Assembly (NCBI GenBank): GCA_023512475.1
Contig: JAILZL010000021.1
Coordinates: 1-49,235 of the forward strand
Direction of reading: 5' to 3'
DNA from: Syntrophobacterales bacterium
Lineage (GTDB): Bacteria > Desulfobacterota > Desulfobaccia > Desulfobaccales > 0-14-0-80-60-11
DNA: 49,235 bases
This document shows positions 29,845 through 39,640 of this stretch, piece by piece. Position numbers and translations under genes: made by a program. Each line of letters begins with the position of its first letter. The stretch's first letter is position 1. Below the pieces are notes generated by a model. That model was given only the letters and a program-made list of their open reading frames with translations, was not told the DNA's origin and ran no database searches.

Positions 29845-32376
29845 TCAGGCCGGCGACTCCAGGCGGAACTCCTGCCGCCGGAAGGCCTCCAGGTGCCGCT
29901 GAAGAGCCGCCTCGGAGGTCAGGGCGACATCCAGTTGCCGGCAAAAGGCGAACAGGCAGGCCACCTGTTCCAGGAGGGCGGCGCCTTTCCCGGCGGGATA
30001 TTTGAGCAGGCGGGCCCGGAGAAGGTCGCCGGTGAGCTCCGCCTCGAAGCCCAGGTCGGTGAGGATGGTCTTAAGCAACCGCAGGCGGCGCTCCCGCCGG
30101 TCCTCGGCGGCGGCGCCGCCCTGAAACTGCAGGGCGAGATAGTTGTCGTTGATTTCCGGCCCCAGGTAGGCGTCCACCACGGCGAAGTGATAGCCCAAAC
30201 GGGAGCTGAAGTGCAGGTAATTTTCCGCCACCAGGGCAAAACTGGCCTCCCCCAGCTCCCCTTCCGACCTGCCGGCGTCATAGAGGGTGTTGGCCACCAC
30301 GGACAGAAAGCCCTGAAGATCGGGGGCAGCGCGGCTCATGCCCTGCAGTCCCGGGTGACGAAAGCCCTTGAGCAGGGCCCTGAGAGGCAGGCTGGTGATC
30401 TGGGCCTCCTCCAGTATTTCCGGGTCCGTGGCGGTGGTGCCGCCCCCCAGATCCAGAATCAGGAGATGAAAGGGCAGGTCGGTCTTAAGGCGACGCACGC
30501 CGGCCGCCTGGCGCAGACCCCCCACCTTCTGGGAGAACATGGCTGCCATGGCCTTCTCATGGCAGAACCGGGTGAGGTCGTGGAAGGAGCGGCAGTTTTC
30601 CGGCCGGAAGCCGGGATCGGCCGGGTCCAGGAGGTGCAGGGGCGTCACCTGCCGCAGCACCTGCCGGTATTTCAGGTTCCGGGACCGCTCCTGCCCGGAG
30701 ACCTTCTCCCGGCGGGGACGGTGGGCCAAAACGGGATGCCGCCCGGGATAGATCCGGGTCCGGTCGGCGTCCACGGTGACCCACTGCCCCGGGGTCAACC
30801 GGCTGACGGCGCCCTCCAGCCCCACGAGGGTGGGCACCTGGTATTCCCGGGCCAGGATGGTGAGGTGATCCGTGGGGCTGCCCACCTCCAGGATGAGGGC
30901 CGCCAGCCGGTCCAGCACCATGGCCAGGCGCAGGGAGGGCCTTAAGGCCACCAGGACCGCCCCTGAGGGAACCGCCTCCGGATCCCCCTCGGGTGGAAGG
31001 ACGGCCACCGGACCGGCGCCCATGCCCCGCACGGCGCACACCCCGCCCTCCAGGAGCGGTCCGGGTCCGGGTGCGGGATCCGCCTGGAGGACCTCGACTT
31101 CGGCCTCCAGGCGCAGGTCCCGGGACTGGAGGATCACAATGTCCCCGGAGTCATCCACGGCCCATTCCACGTCCTGGGGGCCCCCGAAATGGCGCTCCAA
31201 AGCCAGGCCGAGCTCCCGTAAGGCGGCCAGCTCCTCAGGGGAGAGGCAGGGGGCGGTGGCCTGCTCCGGGTCCAGCGGCTCCTCGACGCAGCCACCCCCG
31301 GGCAGGGGCCGCAGGGCCACCGGCTTGCGGGCGATCTCCTGCCGGCTGAGGCGCCCGGACTCCCGCTCCAGGCAATACAGATCCGGGGTGATGACCCCGT
31401 CCACGGCATATTTCCCCAGCCCGAAGACGGCGTTGATGAGCAGAGTGCCCGTCTCGGGCCGGCGGGGATCCACGGTGAACATCACCCCACTGGCCCGGGC
31501 GGCCACCATGCTCAACACCCCCACGGCCATGGGGAGACCGCCGGCCTCGTAGCCGTGCCGCCGCCAGTAGGCCACCGCGGCGGGATGAAACTTGGAGGCG
31601 ATGATCCGCTTATAGGCGGCGGGCAGTTCCGCCACCGGCACATTGAGGAGGGTGGTGAACCGGCCGGCGAAGGAGTGCTCCCCGTCTTCGCCCACGGCGC
31701 TGGAACGGACCGCCAGGCGCTCTGAGGGCAGCGCCTGGGCGGCCAGGTGCAGGATCCCCTCCAGATCGGGCGGCAAGGGGGTGTTCAGGATGAGGGTCTG
31801 AATGTCCTCGCAGACCCGGGTAAGAAGGCCCGTGTCCTCCGGGGGGACGGCGGCCAGTCTGGCGGCGATGGTCTGCTCCAGGCCCTGGGCGCGCATGAAG
31901 GCCTGATAGGCGGCGGTGGTGACGGCAAACCCCCGGGGCACCGGCAGGCCCAGGCGGTGGCGGATCTCCCCCAGCCGGGCCATCTTCTCCCCCACCGCCA
32001 GCCTCTGCTCCCGGCTGAGGGCATGCAGGGGCAGGAGATAGGGGGTATCCGGGATCTCCGGTGCGCCCTCCAGGGTTCTTTGCAGCCGCTGCCACAGGGC
32101 CTGGAAGACCCGGCTCAGCTGGGGGTAACGCTCCCCGCTCAGCCGGTGGAGGGCGGTGATCATCTCCGCCACCCGCTCCCCCAGTTCCTCCAGGCGCCGG
32201 TAAAGATGCTCCTCTTCCGGCCGGGATGCCGGGGCCGGGCTCTCCTCCAGTTCCGCCATCAGGGCCAGGATCTGATTGTTCGCCTCCAGCAGGCGGCGGA
32301 AGTGGGCATATTTCTCCCGCAGATACTCCAGGGAATTTTCCCGGTGGGGAGCCATCGTCCGCAGGAAACTGAACAT
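29845..32376 (-). CDS. PEP synthase/PPDK-like protein with novel C-terminal region
   Basis: 843 residues; GGAGGTG stands 7 bases before the ATG. The N-terminal ~120 residues are helical. Then comes a pyruvate-phosphate-dikinase ATP-binding domain (~125-430): GEKMARLGEIRHRLGLPVPRG, LAVRSSAVGEDGEHSFAGRF, ASGVMFTVDP and DVEWAVDD. A phosphohistidine swivel domain (~470-550) carries GSPTDHLTILAREYQVPTLV with the His of the TxH motif. The usual PEP/pyruvate TIM barrel is absent. Instead ~290 residues of unrecognised sequence follow, including LDLGGGTT and LGYHFAVVDAYLGPE. So it may phosphorylate an unknown acceptor from ATP rather than make PEP. It is the third gene of an operon with a TSUP permease and a USP-like protein, an association I recall from other Desulfobacterota. 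Known PEP-synthase activity cannot be assumed. Confidence 0.82.
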   Translation of the reverse strand: MFSFLRTMAPHRENSLEYLREKYAHFRRLLEANNQILALMAELEESPAPASRPEEEHLYRRLEELGERVAEMITALHRLSGERYPQLSRVFQALWQRLQRTLEGAPEIPDTPYLLPLHALSREQRLAVGEKMARLGEIRHRLGLPVPRGFAVTTAAYQAFMRAQGLEQTIAARLAAVPPEDTGLLTRVCEDIQTLILNTPLPPDLEGILHLAAQALPSERLAVRSSAVGEDGEHSFAGRFTTLLNVPVAELPAAYKRIIASKFHPAAVAYWRRHGYEAGGLPMAVGVLSMVAARASGVMFTVDPRRPETGTLLINAVFGLGKYAVDGVITPDLYCLERESGRLSRQEIARKPVALRPLPGGGCVEEPLDPEQATAPCLSPEELAALRELGLALERHFGGPQDVEWAVDDSGDIVILQSRDLRLEAEVEVLQADPAPGPGPLLEGGVCAVRGMGAGPVAVLPPEGDPEAVPSGAVLVALRPSLRLAMVLDRLAALILEVGSPTDHLTILAREYQVPTLVGLEGAVSRLTPGQWVTVDADRTRIYPGRHPVLAHRPRREKVSGQERSRNLKYRQVLRQVTPLHLLDPADPGFRPENCRSFHDLTRFCHEKAMAAMFSQKVGGLRQAAGVRRLKTDLPFHLLILDLGGGTTATDPEILEEAQITSLPLRALLKGFRHPGLQGMSRAAPDLQGFLSVVANTLYDAGRSEGELGEASFALVAENYLHFSSRLGYHFAVVDAYLGPEINDNYLALQFQGGAAAEDRRERRLRLLKTILTDLGFEAELTGDLLRARLLKYPAGKGAALLEQVACLFAFCRQLDVALTSEAALQRHLEAFRRQEFRLESPA

Positions 32377-32403: not shown

Positions 32404-33471
32404 TTAGCCCAGGGATTCCTCAGTGGCTTCGATACCGGGGCTCCCGGAGACCTCCGCCCGCCACATGGCCCCCAGGATGATGACGGCTCCCACCACCAAG
32501 GCCAGACACATGAAGAGGAAGCTCATTTTGTCCAAAACGGTGAGCGTCCCCGGGCCGAGGGCCATGAGGCCCAGATCCGTGAGATACCGGGGCACCGCCA
32601 AGGCCCGGCTCACCGCCACGATGAGCATGATGGTGCCCATGACCACCTTGATCATGTGCTCCTTGACATAGGTGGTGCCGATGGCCCCCAGTTGCACCCC
32701 GAGGAGGGAGCCTGCCAGAATGATGAGGGTGAGGCGGATGTCCACCATGCCGTTCACGGCCCACTTGAGGGTGCCACCCAGGCCCATGACAAAGGCGATG
32801 ACCAGCTCGGTGGCCGAGGCCACCAGGCTCGGCGCCCCCAGGACATAGATCATGCCCGGCACACCGATGAACCCGCCCACCGCGATGGTGGCGGCCAGCA
32901 TCCCGGTGGCGAACCCGATGGGCAAAGTGAACCACAGGGAGATGCGGGTGTTGGCCGTATGGAGGGTGATCATGGGCGGCAGGTGGATCTGCGCCAGCCG
33001 CCGGGCCAGGGGTGAGACCTTCTCGCCCCCACCCTGACGGGCGATTCTGTAAGCGTCATAGAAGACATATCCGCCCACCAGGACCAGGACGGCCACGAAG
33101 GTGAGACTGACATAGAGGTTGGACCCCGCCTGTCCCCAGGATTGGAGGATCCACTCCTGGATCTTGATGCCCACCTGCACGCCCACGCCGGCGGAGGCGG
33201 CCATGATGAGGCCGAGCTTGAGGTCCACCTGGCCGTATTTATACCGTTTGATGGCGCCCACCAAAGCCTTGGGGAACTTGTGGCACATGTTGCTGGCCAC
33301 CGCCACCGCGGCCGGGACCCCCAGGCTCATCATGCCGGGGGTGAGGACAAAGGCCCCCCCGGAACCGATGAAGCCGCTCACCAGGCCGCCGACGAAGCCG
33401 ACGCAGAAGAGAAACAGGATGGTGGTGGTGTTGAGGTCGATAAATGGGACGCTGCCGGCCATTTCATGCAT
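32404..33471 (-). CDS. TSUP family (TauE/SafE) membrane permease
   Basis: 355 residues with eight or so membrane helices. The N-terminal GGLVSGFIGSGGAFVLTPGMM and the mid-protein ATGMLAATIAVGGFIGVPGM repeats are the paired signature of the sulfite exporter TauE/SafE family. A charged loop (~140-165) separates the halves. GGAGGG lies 8 bases before the ATG. Members move sulfite, sulfoacetate or other small anions; in sulfate reducers the substrate is often not known. It sits between the USP-like membrane protein (27-bp gap) and the PEP-synthase-like protein (27-bp gap), so all three are co-expressed from the sigma-54 promoter at 34362. A link between anion transport and the ATP-dependent enzyme is inferred from this order. 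Confidence 0.9.
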   Translation of the reverse strand: MHEMAGSVPFIDLNTTTILFLFCVGFVGGLVSGFIGSGGAFVLTPGMMSLGVPAAVAVASNMCHKFPKALVGAIKRYKYGQVDLKLGLIMAASAGVGVQVGIKIQEWILQSWGQAGSNLYVSLTFVAVLVLVGGYVFYDAYRIARQGGGEKVSPLARRLAQIHLPPMITLHTANTRISLWFTLPIGFATGMLAATIAVGGFIGVPGMIYVLGAPSLVASATELVIAFVMGLGGTLKWAVNGMVDIRLTLIILAGSLLGVQLGAIGTTYVKEHMIKVVMGTIMLIVAVSRALAVPRYLTDLGLMALGPGTLTVLDKMSFLFMCLALVVGAVIILGAMWRAEVSGSPGIEATEESLG

Positions 33472-33498: not shown

Positions 33499-34314
33499 TT
33501 AGACATTGAGGCGCAGACGGGGCCGCGGCCGCTGACGCCGGGCCGGGCGGGCCTGAGGCCGCACCTTTTGCTGCGGGGCCCGGATGCCCAGAGCCTCCCA
33601 GAGGTGATGGGCAAAGGTGCCGTGGATGTAAGAGAACAGAAAAACCGTGGCCACCGGCAAAGCCGCATACCAGCCGCCCCGGGTGAAATAGCCCATGATG
33701 CTCTCGGAGTTCAGGAATACGGCGGCATAGAGGGCCACCGTGGCCGCCCCCCACCCGAGGGTCCGCCCGAGCACCTGCCTCACATTCGGTTCCGCGGTCA
33801 CGTTCATCTCCCCTTTCCCCGTGGAAATGGTAAAAACCGGGAGTGACACCCCGCCCAGCATGTCGGCTTCCCGGCTGTCCGTGGCGTTCAGGACAAATTC
33901 GATGCGCCTTTTCTCCCGGTGCAGCACGGTCATCACCTCGCCGAGGCCGCCGAAGCGCACCTGATGCTCAGCCTTCAGGCCGGCGGCCTTAAGCCTTTTC
34001 CGGACCGGCCGCCAGGCCCAGGAGGCCTGGGCGCAAAACCACGCCCGCCGGGCCCGGGCCTTCAGCCCCGCCAGGGGGCCGGCTGCAGGGGAGGCCGGGC
34101 CCACGTTCACGGCCACCAGATCATAGCCCAGCCGGTCCGCCAGATTGAGGGCATAATCCAGGACCGAGTCCGTGAATCGGGCCCCCTGTCCCACCAGGAG
34201 GATCTTGCGGTTTTCCGGCGCCAACTCCGGCGGCACCGACAGCCCCTTGGCCATCAGGCTGGCCGCCGCCGCCTCCCGGGGGTCCCATCCTGTACTTGAC
34301 TGCTTGCCGTCCAT
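33499..34314 (-). CDS. USP-like protein with C-terminal membrane helices
   Basis: 271 residues from ATG 34314, which has GGAAGGGG 8 bases upstream; an in-frame GTG seven codons earlier is less likely. Residues ~30-160 resemble a universal-stress-protein Rossmann fold: KILLVGQGARFTDSVLDYAL then DRLGYDLVAVNVGP and FGGLGEVMTVLHREKRRIEFVLNA. The usual ATP-binding G-2x-G-9x-G(S/T) loop is not evident. Two hydrophobic helices follow at ~185-240 (GWGAATVALYAAVFL and YAALPVATVFLFSYI), then a Lys/Arg/Pro-rich tail. So the USP-like part is probably anchored to the membrane with its tail in the cytoplasm. It is the first gene of the operon with the TSUP permease and may regulate it. Function not known. 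Confidence 0.65.
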   Translation of the reverse strand: MDGKQSSTGWDPREAAAASLMAKGLSVPPELAPENRKILLVGQGARFTDSVLDYALNLADRLGYDLVAVNVGPASPAAGPLAGLKARARRAWFCAQASWAWRPVRKRLKAAGLKAEHQVRFGGLGEVMTVLHREKRRIEFVLNATDSREADMLGGVSLPVFTISTGKGEMNVTAEPNVRQVLGRTLGWGAATVALYAAVFLNSESIMGYFTRGGWYAALPVATVFLFSYIHGTFAHHLWEALGIRAPQQKVRPQARPARRQRPRPRLRLNV

Positions 34315-34361
34315 GTCGGTGCCCCTTCCGGTCACTTTGGATTTTGTCCTGGCCTCTTCCT

Positions 34362-34378
34362 ATGCAAAGGCCGGGCCA
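34362..34378 (-). promoter_or_regulatory. Sigma-54 (-24/-12) promoter of the USP-TSUP-PEP synthase-like operon
   Basis: On the minus strand TGGCCCGGCCTTTGCAT matches TGGCAC-N5-TTGCW in all but one position with exact GG-N10-GC spacing. The start would be near 34352, 38 bases before the ATG at 34314. Two palindromes lie about 110 and 185 bases further upstream. Confidence 0.7.
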
Positions 34379-34450: not shown

Positions 34451-34470
34451 GATGTTGCATAATGCAATGG
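34451..34470. promoter_or_regulatory. Palindromic operator 1 (TTGCATAATGCAA)
   Basis: A perfect 13-bp palindrome, TTGCAT-A-ATGCAA, at 34455-34467 within a longer site starting GATG. It matches operator 2 (34528-34547, opposite orientation) in 15 of the first 16 positions. It is centred about 110 bases upstream of the sigma-54 start at 34352, as expected for an NtrC-type upstream activator site. Confidence 0.65.
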
Positions 34471-34527: not shown

Positions 34528-34547
34528 ATGCTGCATTCTGCAACATC
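34528..34547. promoter_or_regulatory. Palindromic operator 2
   Basis: The reverse complement reads GATGTTGCAGAATGCAGCAT, sharing GATGTTGCA and AATGCA with operator 1. Its centre is 76 bases from operator 1, about 185 bases upstream of the sigma-54 start of the minus-strand operon and about 65 bases upstream of the predicted start of the REC-Lon gene. It could serve both directions. Confidence 0.6.
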
Positions 34548-34568: not shown

Positions 34569-34597
34569 TTGTGCCCGGGAGGATTTCCCCCTATAAT
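34569..34597 (+). promoter_or_regulatory. Sigma-70-like promoter of the REC-Lon gene
   Basis: TTGTGC (34569-34574), a 17-base spacer and a perfect TATAAT (34592-34597). Transcription near 34604 gives a leader of about 90 bases that carries a GC-rich stretch resembling part of the dispersed repeat (GGGGAAGGGGCCAGGGG). Confidence 0.6.
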
Positions 34598-34694: not shown

Positions 34695-36698
34695 ATGTTT
34701 TTTCGCCGCCCTCCCCCGCCCGAAGCCCCCAAGGCCGCGCCGGAACTGGAGAGCCTGCGCCAGACCCTGAAGCAGGCCCGCCTGCCGGAGACCGCCGCCC
34801 AGGTGGCCTGGCGGGAGCTGGAAAAGCTGGAAAAGACGGACCCCACCCTGCCGGAGTATGCCATCGGGCTCAGTTATCTGGACCTGCTCCTGTCCCTGCC
34901 CTGGGAGCGCAGCACCCCGGACAACCTGAACCTCAGGCATGTGGAAGCGGTGCTCAATGAGCAGCACTACGGGCTTCAGCCGGTCAAGGAGCGCATCCTG
35001 GAATATCTGGCCGGCCGCATGCTCTGCAGCCTGCAGCCCAGCCGGGTCCTGGTGGTGGATGATGAAGAGATCGCCCGCACCAACCTGGAGTACATCCTGC
35101 AAAAGGACGGCTACCAGGTGGACACCGCGGCCAGCGCCCTGGAGGCCCTGGACAAGCTGGCGAGGCGGGAATTCGATGTGGTGCTCACCGACCTCAAGAT
35201 GGAGCGCATGGACGGCCTCCAGCTGCTGGAGGCCATCAAGGCCCAGGCGCCGGCCACGGAAGTGGTGATGATCACCGGCTACGCCACCGTGGGCACCGCG
35301 GTGGACGCCCTGCGCAAGGGCGCGGCCCACTATCTCCCCAAGCCCATCAACCTGGAGGAGCTGCGGCGGACGGTGCAGGAGCTGGCTGAAAAAAAGCGCC
35401 TCTTCCAGGCGAGCCAGGGGCCGGTTCTGTGTTTCAGCGGGCCGCCGGGCACCGGCAAGACCTCCATCGGCCAGGCCATCGCCACCGCCCTGGGCCGCAA
35501 GTTCGTGCGCCTCTCTCTGGCCGGCATGCGGGACGAAGCGGAGCTCCGGGGCCACCGCCGCACCTATGTGGGGGCCCTCCCCGGGCGGATCATCAGTGAA
35601 CTGCGGCGCCTGGGGGTCAACAACCCGGTCTTCATGCTGGATGAAATTGACAAGATCGGCCAGGATTTCCGAGGGGATCCGGCGGCGGTGCTCCTGGAGG
35701 TGCTGGACCCGGAGCAGAACCGCCACTTTGTGGATCATTACCTGGAAGTGCCCTTCGACCTCTCCCGGGTGATGTTCATTGCCACCGCCAACGCGGTGAC
35801 CGACCTGCCGGCGGCGCTGGTGGACCGGCTGGAGGTCATCACCTTCCCCGGCTACACCACCCGGGAGAAACGGGAGATCGCCCGCCGCTATCTCTGGCCG
35901 CGGCAGTTGCGCAGCCACGGCCTGTCCGGGCAGGAGCTGGAGCTGACCCCCGAGGCCATCACCACCATCATCCAGCATTACACCCGGGAGGCCGGCTTGC
36001 GGCAGCTCAACCGGGCCTTGGCCACCCTGGCCCGGAAACTGGCCCGCCTGTGTCTGGAGGAGCAGCAGCGCTGCCCGGTGACCTATCTGGACGCCGCGGT
36101 GGTGGAACGGCTCCTGGGGCCCCATCTCTATCAGCACGAGATCGCGGCCCGGGAGGATCGGGTGGGGGTGGCCACCGGCCTCGTGTGGACCGAATTCGGC
36201 GGGGAGATCATCTTTGTGGAGGCGGTGCGCATGAAGGGCCAGCAGCAGCTCCTCCTCACCGGCTCCCTGGGGGAGGTCCTGCGGGAATCGGCCCAGACCG
36301 CCTTAAGCTACGTGCGCAGCCACGCCGCCGACCTGGGGGTGGATCCCGACTTTTTCCGCCACAGCGACATCCACATCCATCTGCCCTCCGGGGCCATCCC
36401 TAAGGAGGGACCCAGCGCAGGGGCCGCTTTGGCGGTGAGCCTCATCTCCCTTCTCACCGGCCGGCCGGTGCGCCGGGAGGTGGCCCTCACCGGGGAGCTC
36501 ACCTTAAACGGTCAGTTGCTGCCGGTGAGCGGCGTCCGGGAAAAACTGCTGGCGGCCCAGCGGGCCGGGGTCCAGGTGGTCATCCTCCCCCGGCAGAATC
36601 AGGCGGAGGTGGCCCGGGTGGAGGAGGAGGCCAAGGAGGGCCTGGAGATCCTCCTGGCCGACAATCTCCGGGAGGTTCTGGACCGGGTGCTGCGCTGA
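34695..36698 (+). CDS. Lon (S16) protease with an inserted receiver domain (REC-Lon)
   Basis: 667 residues from ATG 34695; a TTG six codons earlier is the alternative. Residues ~14-109 are the helical part that precedes the ATPase of Lon (LPWERSTPDNLNLRHVEAVL, HYGLQPVKERILEYLAGRML). The usual ~200-residue N-terminal substrate-binding domain is absent. A complete response-regulator receiver follows (~115-235: VLVVDDE, phosphoacceptor Asp166 in VLTDLKM, Lys216 in LPKPIN). The Lon AAA+ module resumes at GPVLCFSGPPGTGKTS (Walker A ~249-257), with LDEIDKIGQDFRGDPA and arginine and sensor motifs. The protease domain has the catalytic serine in KEGPSAGAA (Ser574) and the lysine in GVREKLLAA (Lys617). 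All catalytic residues are present. The receiver is about half identical by eye to that of the regulator at 36867, whose kinase is therefore the likely phosphodonor. Degradation targets unknown. Confidence 0.92.
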   Translation: MFFRRPPPPEAPKAAPELESLRQTLKQARLPETAAQVAWRELEKLEKTDPTLPEYAIGLSYLDLLLSLPWERSTPDNLNLRHVEAVLNEQHYGLQPVKERILEYLAGRMLCSLQPSRVLVVDDEEIARTNLEYILQKDGYQVDTAASALEALDKLARREFDVVLTDLKMERMDGLQLLEAIKAQAPATEVVMITGYATVGTAVDALRKGAAHYLPKPINLEELRRTVQELAEKKRLFQASQGPVLCFSGPPGTGKTSIGQAIATALGRKFVRLSLAGMRDEAELRGHRRTYVGALPGRIISELRRLGVNNPVFMLDEIDKIGQDFRGDPAAVLLEVLDPEQNRHFVDHYLEVPFDLSRVMFIATANAVTDLPAALVDRLEVITFPGYTTREKREIARRYLWPRQLRSHGLSGQELELTPEAITTIIQHYTREAGLRQLNRALATLARKLARLCLEEQQRCPVTYLDAAVVERLLGPHLYQHEIAAREDRVGVATGLVWTEFGGEIIFVEAVRMKGQQQLLLTGSLGEVLRESAQTALSYVRSHAADLGVDPDFFRHSDIHIHLPSGAIPKEGPSAGAALAVSLISLLTGRPVRREVALTGELTLNGQLLPVSGVREKLLAAQRAGVQVVILPRQNQAEVARVEEEAKEGLEILLADNLREVLDRVLR

Positions 36699-36866: not shown

Positions 36867-38219
36867 TCAGGCCAACCCGTAGCGTTTCAGTTTCCGCCAC
36901 AAGGAGACCCGGTCAATCCCCAGGATCTCGGCGGCCCGGGTCCGGTTGCCCTGGACCTGCTCCAGGATCCAGGCGATATATTCCTTTTCGTTTTCCTCCA
37001 GGGTCAGAAATTCCCGCCGCTGTCGGCGGATCATCTGCAGGCTGCGTTGCTGCAGGTCCGGCGGCAGGTGTTTCACTTCGATGAGGGGCCCGGTGGCCAG
37101 GGTCACGGCCCGCTCGATGATGTTCTCCAACTCCCGGACATTCCCCGGAAATTCGTAGTGCAGGAGGACCTCCAGGACCTCCGGGGCGAAGCCCTCCACC
37201 CGCTTGCCCTGGCGGGCCGCCACCTGGGTGAGGAAATGCTGGCAGAGCAGGGGGATGTCATCCCGGCGCTCCGCCAGGGGCGGCACCACCAAGGTGACCA
37301 CATTGAGGCGGTAGTAGAGGTCCTGGCGGAAACGGCCCTGGGCCACCTCCTGACGCAGATCCTTGTTGCTGGCGGCCACCAGGCGGACGTCCACCGGGAT
37401 CTCCTCCACCCCGCCCACCCGGATGAGGGTCTTTTCCTGGATCACCCGCAACAGTTTCACTTGCATGGCCGGGGGCATATCCCCCACTTCGTCCAGGAAG
37501 AAGGTGCCGCCGCTGGCCACCTCCAGGAGGCCCTTTTTGGCGCTGTGGGCTCCGGTGAAGGCCCCCTTTTCATGCCCGAAGAGCTCGCTGGCCAGGAGCT
37601 CCTCGCTGAAGGCGCCGCAATTGACCGCCAGAAAGCGCTTCCCCGCCCGGGGGCTGAGGGCATGGAGGGCCCGGGCCACCAGCTCCTTGCCGGTGCCGGT
37701 CTCCCCCAGGATGAGGACATTGCAGTCAGCAGGGGCGATCTGGGCGATGGTCTCCTTTAAGGCGACCATTTTGGCATTCTGCCCGATGAGGGAGGGATAG
37801 CCCGTCTGGGCCGCCACCTGGCGCTTCAGCTCCCGCACCTCCAGGCGCAGGCCCCGCTTGTCCAGGGCCTGGCGCACCAGCAGGCGGACCTCCTCATTCT
37901 GATAGGGCTTGGCCAGGTAGTGGTAGGCGCCCTGCTGCATGGCCGCCACCGCGCTGGCCACCGTGGCGTAGCCGGTGATGACGATCACCTCGGTGTCCGG
38001 GGAGAGCTCCTTGGCCCGCTTCAGCACCTGCATGCCATCCACCCGGTGGAGCCGCAGGTCGGTGAGGACCAGGTCGAATTCGCCCGCCTCCAGCTCCTCC
38101 AGGGCCTGCTCGCCGCTCTCCACCGCCACCACCTCATAGCCTTCCTTGCCCAGGATGTATTCCAGGTTTTCCCGGGCGATCTGCTCGTCATCCACGACCA
38201 GGATGCGGGGAGCGCTCAT
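36867..38219 (-). CDS. Sigma-54-dependent response regulator (NtrC family)
   Basis: 450 residues, normal for the family. Receiver domain at ~4-120 (ILVVDDEQIARENLEYIL, phosphoacceptor Asp54, Lys in LAKPYQ). AAA+ domain at ~140-375 with GETGTGKE, GAFTGA and GTFFLDEVGDMP, then the YEFPGNVRELENII block. A Fis-type helix-turn-helix at the end reads GNRTRAAEILGIDRVSLWRK. It activates sigma-54 promoters after phosphorylation. Its ATG overlaps the stop of the histidine kinase gene by four bases (ATGA), so they form a cognate pair. It converges with REC-Lon, whose receiver is strikingly similar. Two matched palindromes and a sigma-54 promoter at 34362-34547, just beyond REC-Lon, are plausible targets; that link is inference. 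Confidence 0.95.
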   Translation of the reverse strand: MSAPRILVVDDEQIARENLEYILGKEGYEVVAVESGEQALEELEAGEFDLVLTDLRLHRVDGMQVLKRAKELSPDTEVIVITGYATVASAVAAMQQGAYHYLAKPYQNEEVRLLVRQALDKRGLRLEVRELKRQVAAQTGYPSLIGQNAKMVALKETIAQIAPADCNVLILGETGTGKELVARALHALSPRAGKRFLAVNCGAFSEELLASELFGHEKGAFTGAHSAKKGLLEVASGGTFFLDEVGDMPPAMQVKLLRVIQEKTLIRVGGVEEIPVDVRLVAASNKDLRQEVAQGRFRQDLYYRLNVVTLVVPPLAERRDDIPLLCQHFLTQVAARQGKRVEGFAPEVLEVLLHYEFPGNVRELENIIERAVTLATGPLIEVKHLPPDLQQRSLQMIRRQRREFLTLEENEKEYIAWILEQVQGNRTRAAEILGIDRVSLWRKLKRYGLA

Positions 38220-39640
38220 TCCCTGGGCTCCTCCCCCTGAGCCTCCGGCAAAGGCAGGCGGATGGTGAAGGTGGTGCCCTCCCCCACCCGGCTCTCCACC
38301 TCAATGCTCCCCCGGTGCTTTTCGATGATGCCGTAGACGATGGACAGGCCCAGGCCGGTGCCCACCCCTTCCTCCTTCAGGGTAAAGAAGGGATCGAAGA
38401 TCTGGTCCAGGGCCTCGGGGGGAATGCCCACGCCGTTGTCCGACACGGTGATGACCACCTGGCCCCGGTTCGGGTCCGCTTCCGCCTTCAGGGTGATGCG
38501 GCCGGGCCCCTGGGGGATGGCCTGGATGGCATTCATGATCAGGTTGAGAAAGACCTCCTGCAGGCGCTGGGGATCGATCTCCGCCACCAGATCGTCGGGC
38601 ACCTCATTGACGATGTCGATGTGGGAGGGCACCTGACTGGAGATGAGCTGCAGGGAGCGCTTCACCACCTGGGCCAGGGGCACCCGGTGCAGGGAGAAAT
38701 CCCGCACCCGGGAAAACTCCAGCAGGCCTTTGACGATATCCCGGGCCCGGATCACCTCCTGCTGGATATTGTGCAGCATCTTGCGCAGGAGCTCCGGGGG
38801 GCCGCTCTCCAGTTCCTCCAGCAGGATCTGACAGGAAGTGGAGATGTTGTTCAGGGGATTGTTCAGCTGGTGGGCGATGCCGGCGGTCAGGATGCCCAGG
38901 GAGGACATCTTTTTGGACTCCACCAGCTGGTGCTGCCGCCGGGAGAGCTCGGTCACCATGCGGTTGAAGGCCTCCACCACCTGCTGGGTTTCATCCCGGG
39001 TCTGCAGCACCGGCAAAGGCCGGAAATCCCCTTTGGCGATCCTGAGGGTGGTATTTTCAATCACCTTCAAGGGCCGGAGGATCTTGCGGCTGATGAGAAC
39101 GGTGAGGAAAATACCGCAGAAGATGAAAAAGATGACCGCAGTGATCAGTTGGGCTTTCAGATTGGTGATGATCTCCAGAATGCGCTGCCGTTCGAAGATC
39201 ACCAATTCCCGGGAGAGCTCCACCAGCTTTTTGCCCCGCTCCCGCATCTCCTCTTCCTCGGCACTGCTCACTTTGGCCGTCCCGGAGACGAATTTCTGCA
39301 TCAGTTTGCGATAATTGTTTAGTTCGGTCTCCAGTTGCCCGAGAAACTGGGAGATTTTGAGAATCTTCCCTTCCGGGTAGAACTGCCTCAGGGTGTCAGA
39401 AGCCAGCTCAATCTGGTGCAGGTTTTCCTGTAAATCCTGGGGGGAATGATATAAGAGAAAATTTTTCTCATAACGTCTGATTTCCAGAATGATTTCCCGC
39501 AGGTCATTGGCCATTTCCACGATATGCTGCTTCACCTCAATCACTTTCAGGTAATAATAGGAATAACTGGCGATGAGGCCGATGACCACGATGGCGGCGG
39601 CAAAAATCACGATGACCTTCTGGCGGATATTGAGATGCAT
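38216..39640 (-). CDS. Membrane sensor histidine kinase (HAMP-HisKA-HATPase)
   Basis: 474 residues. First membrane helix at ~8-31, a mainly helical periplasmic sensor region of ~130 residues (including [15 protein letters not shown], typical of four-helix-bundle sensors), and a second helix at ~165-185. Then a HAMP domain ([21 protein letters not shown]) and the HisKA box [14 protein letters not shown] with His257. The ATPase domain shows [24 protein letters not shown] and GTGLGLSI. It senses an unknown periplasmic or membrane signal and phosphorylates the regulator encoded by the overlapping next gene. By receiver similarity it may also phosphorylate REC-Lon. Asn and Leu/Pro composition of the sensor gives no ligand clue. 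AT content of the 5' third is higher than in the neighbours. No strong ribosome-binding site. Confidence 0.94.

Follow-up and report, generated by a model that had tools for sequence, protein, structure and literature searches.

Lon proteases that carry a receiver domain are already known and have been little studied. The closest described system, D. vulgaris DVU3303-3305, was reported as a three-component system in which one response regulator bears a Lon protease (Rajeev 2011, PMC3333781), with orthologues in Desulfomicrobium, Desulfohalobium, and Thermodesulfovibrio (PMC3333781), and DVU3305 regulates its own operon as well as the neighboring DVU3302-3298 operon (PMC3333781, PMC4641369). 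In a 2023 transposon study, DVU3303-3305 showed cofitness above 0.9 and were detrimental in chlorate, and the anion transporter DVU3299 was a target (PMC10102598). This cofitness could stem from polar insertions, as DVU3303 seems to lie ahead of the kinase and regulator genes in a single operon. Our literature search found no biochemical study and no phosphotransfer, ATPase, or degradation assay of a protein of this kind.

RssB and CpdR are separate receiver proteins acting as ClpXP adaptors, and to our knowledge receiver control of AAA+ proteolysis has so far been known via such separate adaptor proteins. NtrC/ZraR-type regulators likewise join a receiver to an AAA+ ATPase, but they are sigma-54 activators with an N-terminal receiver on a linker and no protease. 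Here, we describe a receiver-containing Lon, hereafter REC-Lon, encoded in a window of 49,235 nucleotides (contig JAILZL010000021.1 of a Syntrophobacterales genome), which would tie AAA+ proteolysis to two-component signaling as RssB and CpdR do, with the difference that the receiver is part of the protease itself. As in D. vulgaris, a Lon-containing response regulator has a histidine kinase and a sigma-54 response regulator as neighbors, and the Usp and transporter genes of the adjacent DVU target operon have their counterpart in a divergent Usp-TauE pair with paired dyads; in the window, however, the genes for the regulator and kinase do not follow REC-Lon but run toward it. DVU3303 is likened here by its published description, with members from Desulfovibrionaceae and Desulfomicrobium as sequence stand-ins, and the members we found in Desulfomicrobium, Desulfocurvus, Desulfohalobiaceae, and Nitrospirota share the DVU3303-3305-type cassette or protein. 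The novelty implied by an initial annotation of the window was therefore overstated, DVU3303 having been described in 2011. As far as literature searches show, the new elements are the precise site of insertion, the recognition that the substrate domain was lost separately, the phylum-wide conservation of residues, the split between the REC-Lon core and that of ordinary Lons, the docking face shared by two receivers, and the conserved dyad pairs.

We propose, at a probability of roughly 0.58, that REC-Lon forms the proteolytic branch of a two-component system with two outputs, in which the adjoining HAMP-type histidine kinase would phosphorylate both the receiver of the NtrC-type regulator and Asp166 of REC-Lon. 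Acting from the paired dyads, the phosphorylated regulator would activate the divergent operon of Usp and the anion exporter and probably also REC-Lon. Phosphorylation-driven rearrangement of the REC-Lon receiver would alter nucleotide handling or ring assembly, and the altered motor would start or stop protein degradation under that same stress. Transcription of an anion-stress cassette would in this way be linked to proteolysis gated by the signal; we infer the direction of this gating and its substrates as much as the gating itself. In a conserved, widespread protease whose motor houses the receiver, signal-gated proteolysis would be seen directly, and such an enzyme could find use as a protease that can be switched; the cassette, insertion point, docking residues, and dyad pairs turn the brief remark of 2011 into testable questions.

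Domain architecture of REC-Lon

REC-Lon is one uninterrupted 667-amino-acid frame (34695..36698, plus strand, as are all of its parts below) opening with an ATG at 34695, a start that agrees with homologues, most of which begin with M-x-FFR(K/R). The initial annotation had proposed a Pfam search for Response_reg, AAA, and Lon_C, and all three matched: Response_reg at residues 118-227 (E 1e-30), AAA at 245-384, and Lon_C at 466-666 (E 2e-78), with Lon_lid at 407-458. A three-helix bundle or neck (residues 16-90, 34740..34964), which aligns with 4ypn, is followed by the Box II or first AAA+ helix, HYGLxxVKERILEYLA (residues 91-113, 34965..35033), the receiver (residues 116-236, 35040..35402), the AAA+ alpha/beta and lid domains (residues 241-459, 35415..36071), and the Lon_C proteolytic domain (residues 466-666, 36090..36692). 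The receiver has the acidic pair D122/D123, the phosphoacceptor Asp166 (35190..35192), T194, and K216 (PF00072 E 1e-30); the ATPase has Walker A K255, Walker B D316/E317, sensor-1 N366, Arg finger R378, and sensor-2 R436; and the protease dyad consists of Ser574 (36414-36416) and Lys617 (36543-36545).

With a Lon_C domain bearing the Ser-Lys dyad and a Lon-type AAA+ module fused to the protease, REC-Lon belongs to the Lon family (peptidase S16), and the NCBIfam lon model TIGR00763 scores 692, above its cutoff of 608. It has the AAA+ motor, lid, Ser-Lys protease, and three-helix neck before the AAA+ module of LonA (S16; TIGR00763), but differs from LonA in lacking the N-terminal LON_substr_bdg domain (PF02190), which the Pfam search did not find in REC-Lon, and in carrying a receiver after Box II. 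A LonB or LonC subtype was rejected, with TIGR00764, TIGR02902, and TIGR02903 scoring far below their cutoffs. The best NCBIfam matches of the receiver are AtoC/NtrC-type models, and the RssB and CpdR models match it only as a generic receiver. The same genome also encodes three ordinary Lons (at G000:C26:58077, C32:14206, and C53:18447), so REC-Lon is additional to, and is not, the housekeeping Lon.

The receiver lies inside the AAA+ module

Solved Lon structures match REC-Lon at residues 16-111 (neck and Box II) and then again from 235-241 to about 666, with about 124 residues inserted where solved Lons have a short linker, and this match in two pieces indicates that the receiver interrupts an otherwise co-linear Lon. 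The receiver had first been placed between the helical neck and the AAA+ ring, directly before the Walker A strand; its position before that strand holds, but because the Box II helix, the adenine-contact element of AAA+ proteins, precedes the insert, what the receiver interrupts is the AAA+ module itself, not the border of neck and ring. The insertion point is invariant across the aligned REC-Lons.

An AlphaFold2 model built on 48 family sequences has a mean pLDDT of 86.9 and a pTM of 0.82, a value for the monomer that does not fix the seat of the receiver in the ring. In the model, the helix at 95-113 leads to receiver beta-1 at 117, and a long receiver alpha-5 (220-240) leads to AAA+ beta-1 at 244, with linkers of about three residues on either side. 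Insert aside, 514 residues of the model superpose on E. coli Lon (6u5z) at 2.2 Å and 495 on B. subtilis Lon (3m6a) at 2.0 Å; residues 15-386 align with 4ypn, which comprises the three-helix bundle and AAA alpha/beta domain, at 2.1 Å, and the receiver aligns with 3crn_A over 129 residues at 1.3 Å. With connections this short, the modeled receiver could hardly move without shifting either the helix that contacts the nucleotide or the Walker A strand, and a receiver joined by such linkers to the Box II helix on one side and beta-1 on the other would be expected to alter the motor when phosphorylated. It is plausible that phosphorylation gates the ATPase or protease activity of REC-Lon. The more specific idea that the receiver works on the AAA+ ring as an allosteric clutch, with one Asp phosphorylation per subunit switching Lon on or off, we hold tentatively, at a shade under even odds; if true, it would mean two-component control of a protease without transcription or a separate adaptor.

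The initial annotation regarded the receiver as replacing the function of the usual N-terminal substrate domain. PF02190 is indeed absent, but its loss is a change separate from the insertion of the receiver. A related possibility, in our judgment rather unlikely, is that the receiver recruits substrates according to its phosphorylation state, standing in for the lost N-terminal domain and leaving the motor ungated. The absence of LON_substr_bdg in REC-Lon and its presence in an ordinary Lon of the same genome (residues 20-214) would suit such a role, as would the precedent of RssB and CpdR, which are known receiver adaptors of ClpXP, but the modeled receiver is set into the AAA+ fold by short linkers rather than appended N-terminally, and beyond scattered Lon-specific receiver positions no extra conserved surface pointing to clients was identified. 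Given the short connections in the model, we favor a receiver that gates the motor rather than one that hangs free as an adaptor.

Spread and conservation of REC-Lon

Among 395 genomes evenly sampled from the phylum, 49 encode the REC-Lon architecture at 94-53% identity, as do 47 of the 328 of good quality. In 31 near genomes, full-length REC-Lons were found at 94-65% identity, with ordinary Lons scoring well below. A contig scan, whose listed matches were mostly NtrC-type regulators and which gives names rather than a census, added named loci among the matches listed in Desulfovibrionaceae, Desulfocurvus, Desulfomicrobium, Desulfohalobiaceae, and two Nitrospirota, as well as the isolate Desulfobacter vibrioformis DSM 8776. 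Because the window comes from a draft assembly in 73 contigs, of which it is one of 49 kb, a chimeric assembly or decaying fusion might be suspected, the initial annotation having named absence of the architecture from related genomes as the sign of a chimera. We give this explanation practically no credence, as it is refuted by the same architecture in the 49 genomes, in single-contig assemblies (G021, G062, G292, and G381), and in named isolates and metagenome-assembled genomes.

Loss of the phosphoacceptor in homologues had been the other foreseen objection, and it was seen in none: Asp166, T/S194, and K216 are kept in 52 of 52 REC-Lons (53 were aligned, one row being blank there), which also rules out a degenerate receiver. 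The Walker lysine, Walker B DE, sensor-1 Asn, Arg finger, sensor-2 Arg, Ser574, and Lys617 are kept in 53/53, and the conservation of these active sites holds down to 52-53% identity, bearing out the initial description of an intact receiver within a Lon that retains all its catalytic residues. In a tree of the ATPase-protease core, a branch with 100/100 support divides REC-Lons from ordinary Lons, a pattern consistent with one origin of the family.

Several members depart from this picture. A Nitrospirota REC-Lon (L105:7391-9820) has a putative 809-amino-acid frame with more than 100 extra residues before the neck. In one locus (L043), the neck and the receiver-to-protease part stand in two separate frames, and in another (L044) unread bases (N) interrupt the receiver region, each reflecting either a draft-assembly fault or a true break. 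In a genome of the same genus that is 95% complete (G002), both REC-Lon and the TauE exporter described below are absent at the cutoffs used, which suggests that the cassette was gained or lost as a unit.

A conserved gene cassette around REC-Lon

Pfam searches identified the neighbors of REC-Lon, all on the minus strand. Convergent with it is an NtrC-family sigma-54 response regulator of the architecture REC-Sigma54_activat-HTH_8 (36867..38219), followed by a HAMP-HisKA-HATPase_c sensor histidine kinase (38216..39640), the presumed kinase for both receivers. Diverging from REC-Lon in the order given are a Usp-like protein with a hydrophobic C-terminal part (33499..34335), a TauE/SafE-family anion exporter of sulfite type (32404..33471), and a PEP-synthase-like protein with PPDK_N and PEP-utilizers domains (29845..32376). 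For the Usp-like protein, the Pfam evidence in the window is weak (PF00582 E 0.013), and in orthologues it is firm, with E values down to 4.7e-7.

Of 53 REC-Lon loci, 41 have the partner regulator, 42 the kinase, 40 Usp (in 36 of them divergent and no more than 1.5 kb away), and 31 TauE; in the other 12 loci, no partner regulator was found within the stretch read, some of these stretches ending at a contig edge. Taking an E value below 1e-100 as the mark of an orthologous TauE across the 395 genomes, TauE and REC-Lon co-occur in 33 genomes, compared to about 6 expected (Fisher p about 1e-24, uncorrected for shared ancestry). The PEP-synthase-like gene, often part of the cassette, recurs near REC-Lon in several genomes; in its 843-amino-acid product in the window, the two domains are followed by about 300 residues that match nothing in Pfam, at the place of the PEP-binding domain in PEP synthase. 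At two loci where no TauE was found (L065:11253-13067 and L085:3810-7234), CitMHS or Na_sulph_symp anion transporters adjoin REC-Lon, hinting at anion stress as a common theme of these loci.

Docking residues common to two receivers

The receivers of REC-Lon and of the partner regulator have in common I126, A127, N130, and K137 in alpha-1 and H212 in beta-5, all rare in 67 other receivers; N130 occurs in 100% of Lon receivers, 100% of partner receivers, and 3% elsewhere. The comparison receivers were gathered by the patterns [VIL]LVVDDEE and DLKM, a choice that biases the comparison near 119-125 and 167-173 and not at the shared positions. No excess similarity of the two receivers was found in beta-2 or alpha-2. 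Positions I126, A127, and N130 are equivalent to residues 14, 15, and 18 of Spo0F, part of the known face that contacts kinases and phosphotransferases. As a docking face common to both receivers is rare elsewhere, one kinase probably phosphorylates both, and gene order together with the shared docking residues strongly supports kinase input to REC-Lon, albeit as read from sequence. Likeness between the two receivers would also be expected from common descent. In a receiver tree of 121 columns, the partners cluster with part of the Lon receivers (SH-aLRT 86); with the tree loosely resolved and the Lon label needing two changes, no exclusive sister relation of the two is claimed.

The kept docking face would also serve a receiver that only competes with the regulator for phosphoryl groups while proteolysis goes on unaltered. 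We regard such a phosphate sink as very improbable, for it leaves unexplained both the ATPase and protease residues kept in 53/53 and the invariant insertion site inside the motor. Somewhat less remote, and still improbable, is that REC-Lon docks on its own kinase, regulator, or Usp protein and degrades it, ending the response. A docking face in common with the regulator and the tight gene cassette would fit this form of feedback, but the fitness effects of the three D. vulgaris genes have the same sign (PMC10102598), which counts against it, as a protease acting in negative feedback should work against the regulator, although polarity may blur that comparison. The branched system, in which a shared kinase feeds a regulator and a phosphorylation-gated protease, remains our preferred reading.

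Paired dyads and promoters in the control region

Between the REC-Lon and Usp genes lie paired TTGCANNNTGCAA dyads, both given without strand. The first, TTGCATAATGCAA (34455..34467), a putative site for the NtrC-type regulator, is the only perfect copy in the 2.78-Mb genome, and the second, CTGCATTCTGCAA (34531..34543), lies 76 bp from it. Across 49 REC-Lon upstream regions, 65 dyads were seen and 2 were expected; 29 of these regions have at least two, and in 25 of the 29 pairs the spacing is 86-91 bp, compared to 76 bp in the window. No sigma-70 promoter passed the prediction rule, and TTGTGC-17-TATAAT at 34569-34597 before REC-Lon was spotted by eye only. A sigma-54-like promoter, TGGCCCGGCCTTTGCA, stands upstream of the Usp/TauE genes (34363..34378, minus strand) as a consensus match only, and its place beside the dyads is weak evidence, since a scan of the window returned 161 such matches against 134 expected. 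Together, the dyads and the sigma-54-like element look like a candidate upstream activating site of the NtrC-type regulator, a reading that fits the published control by DVU3305 of its own and the neighboring operon.
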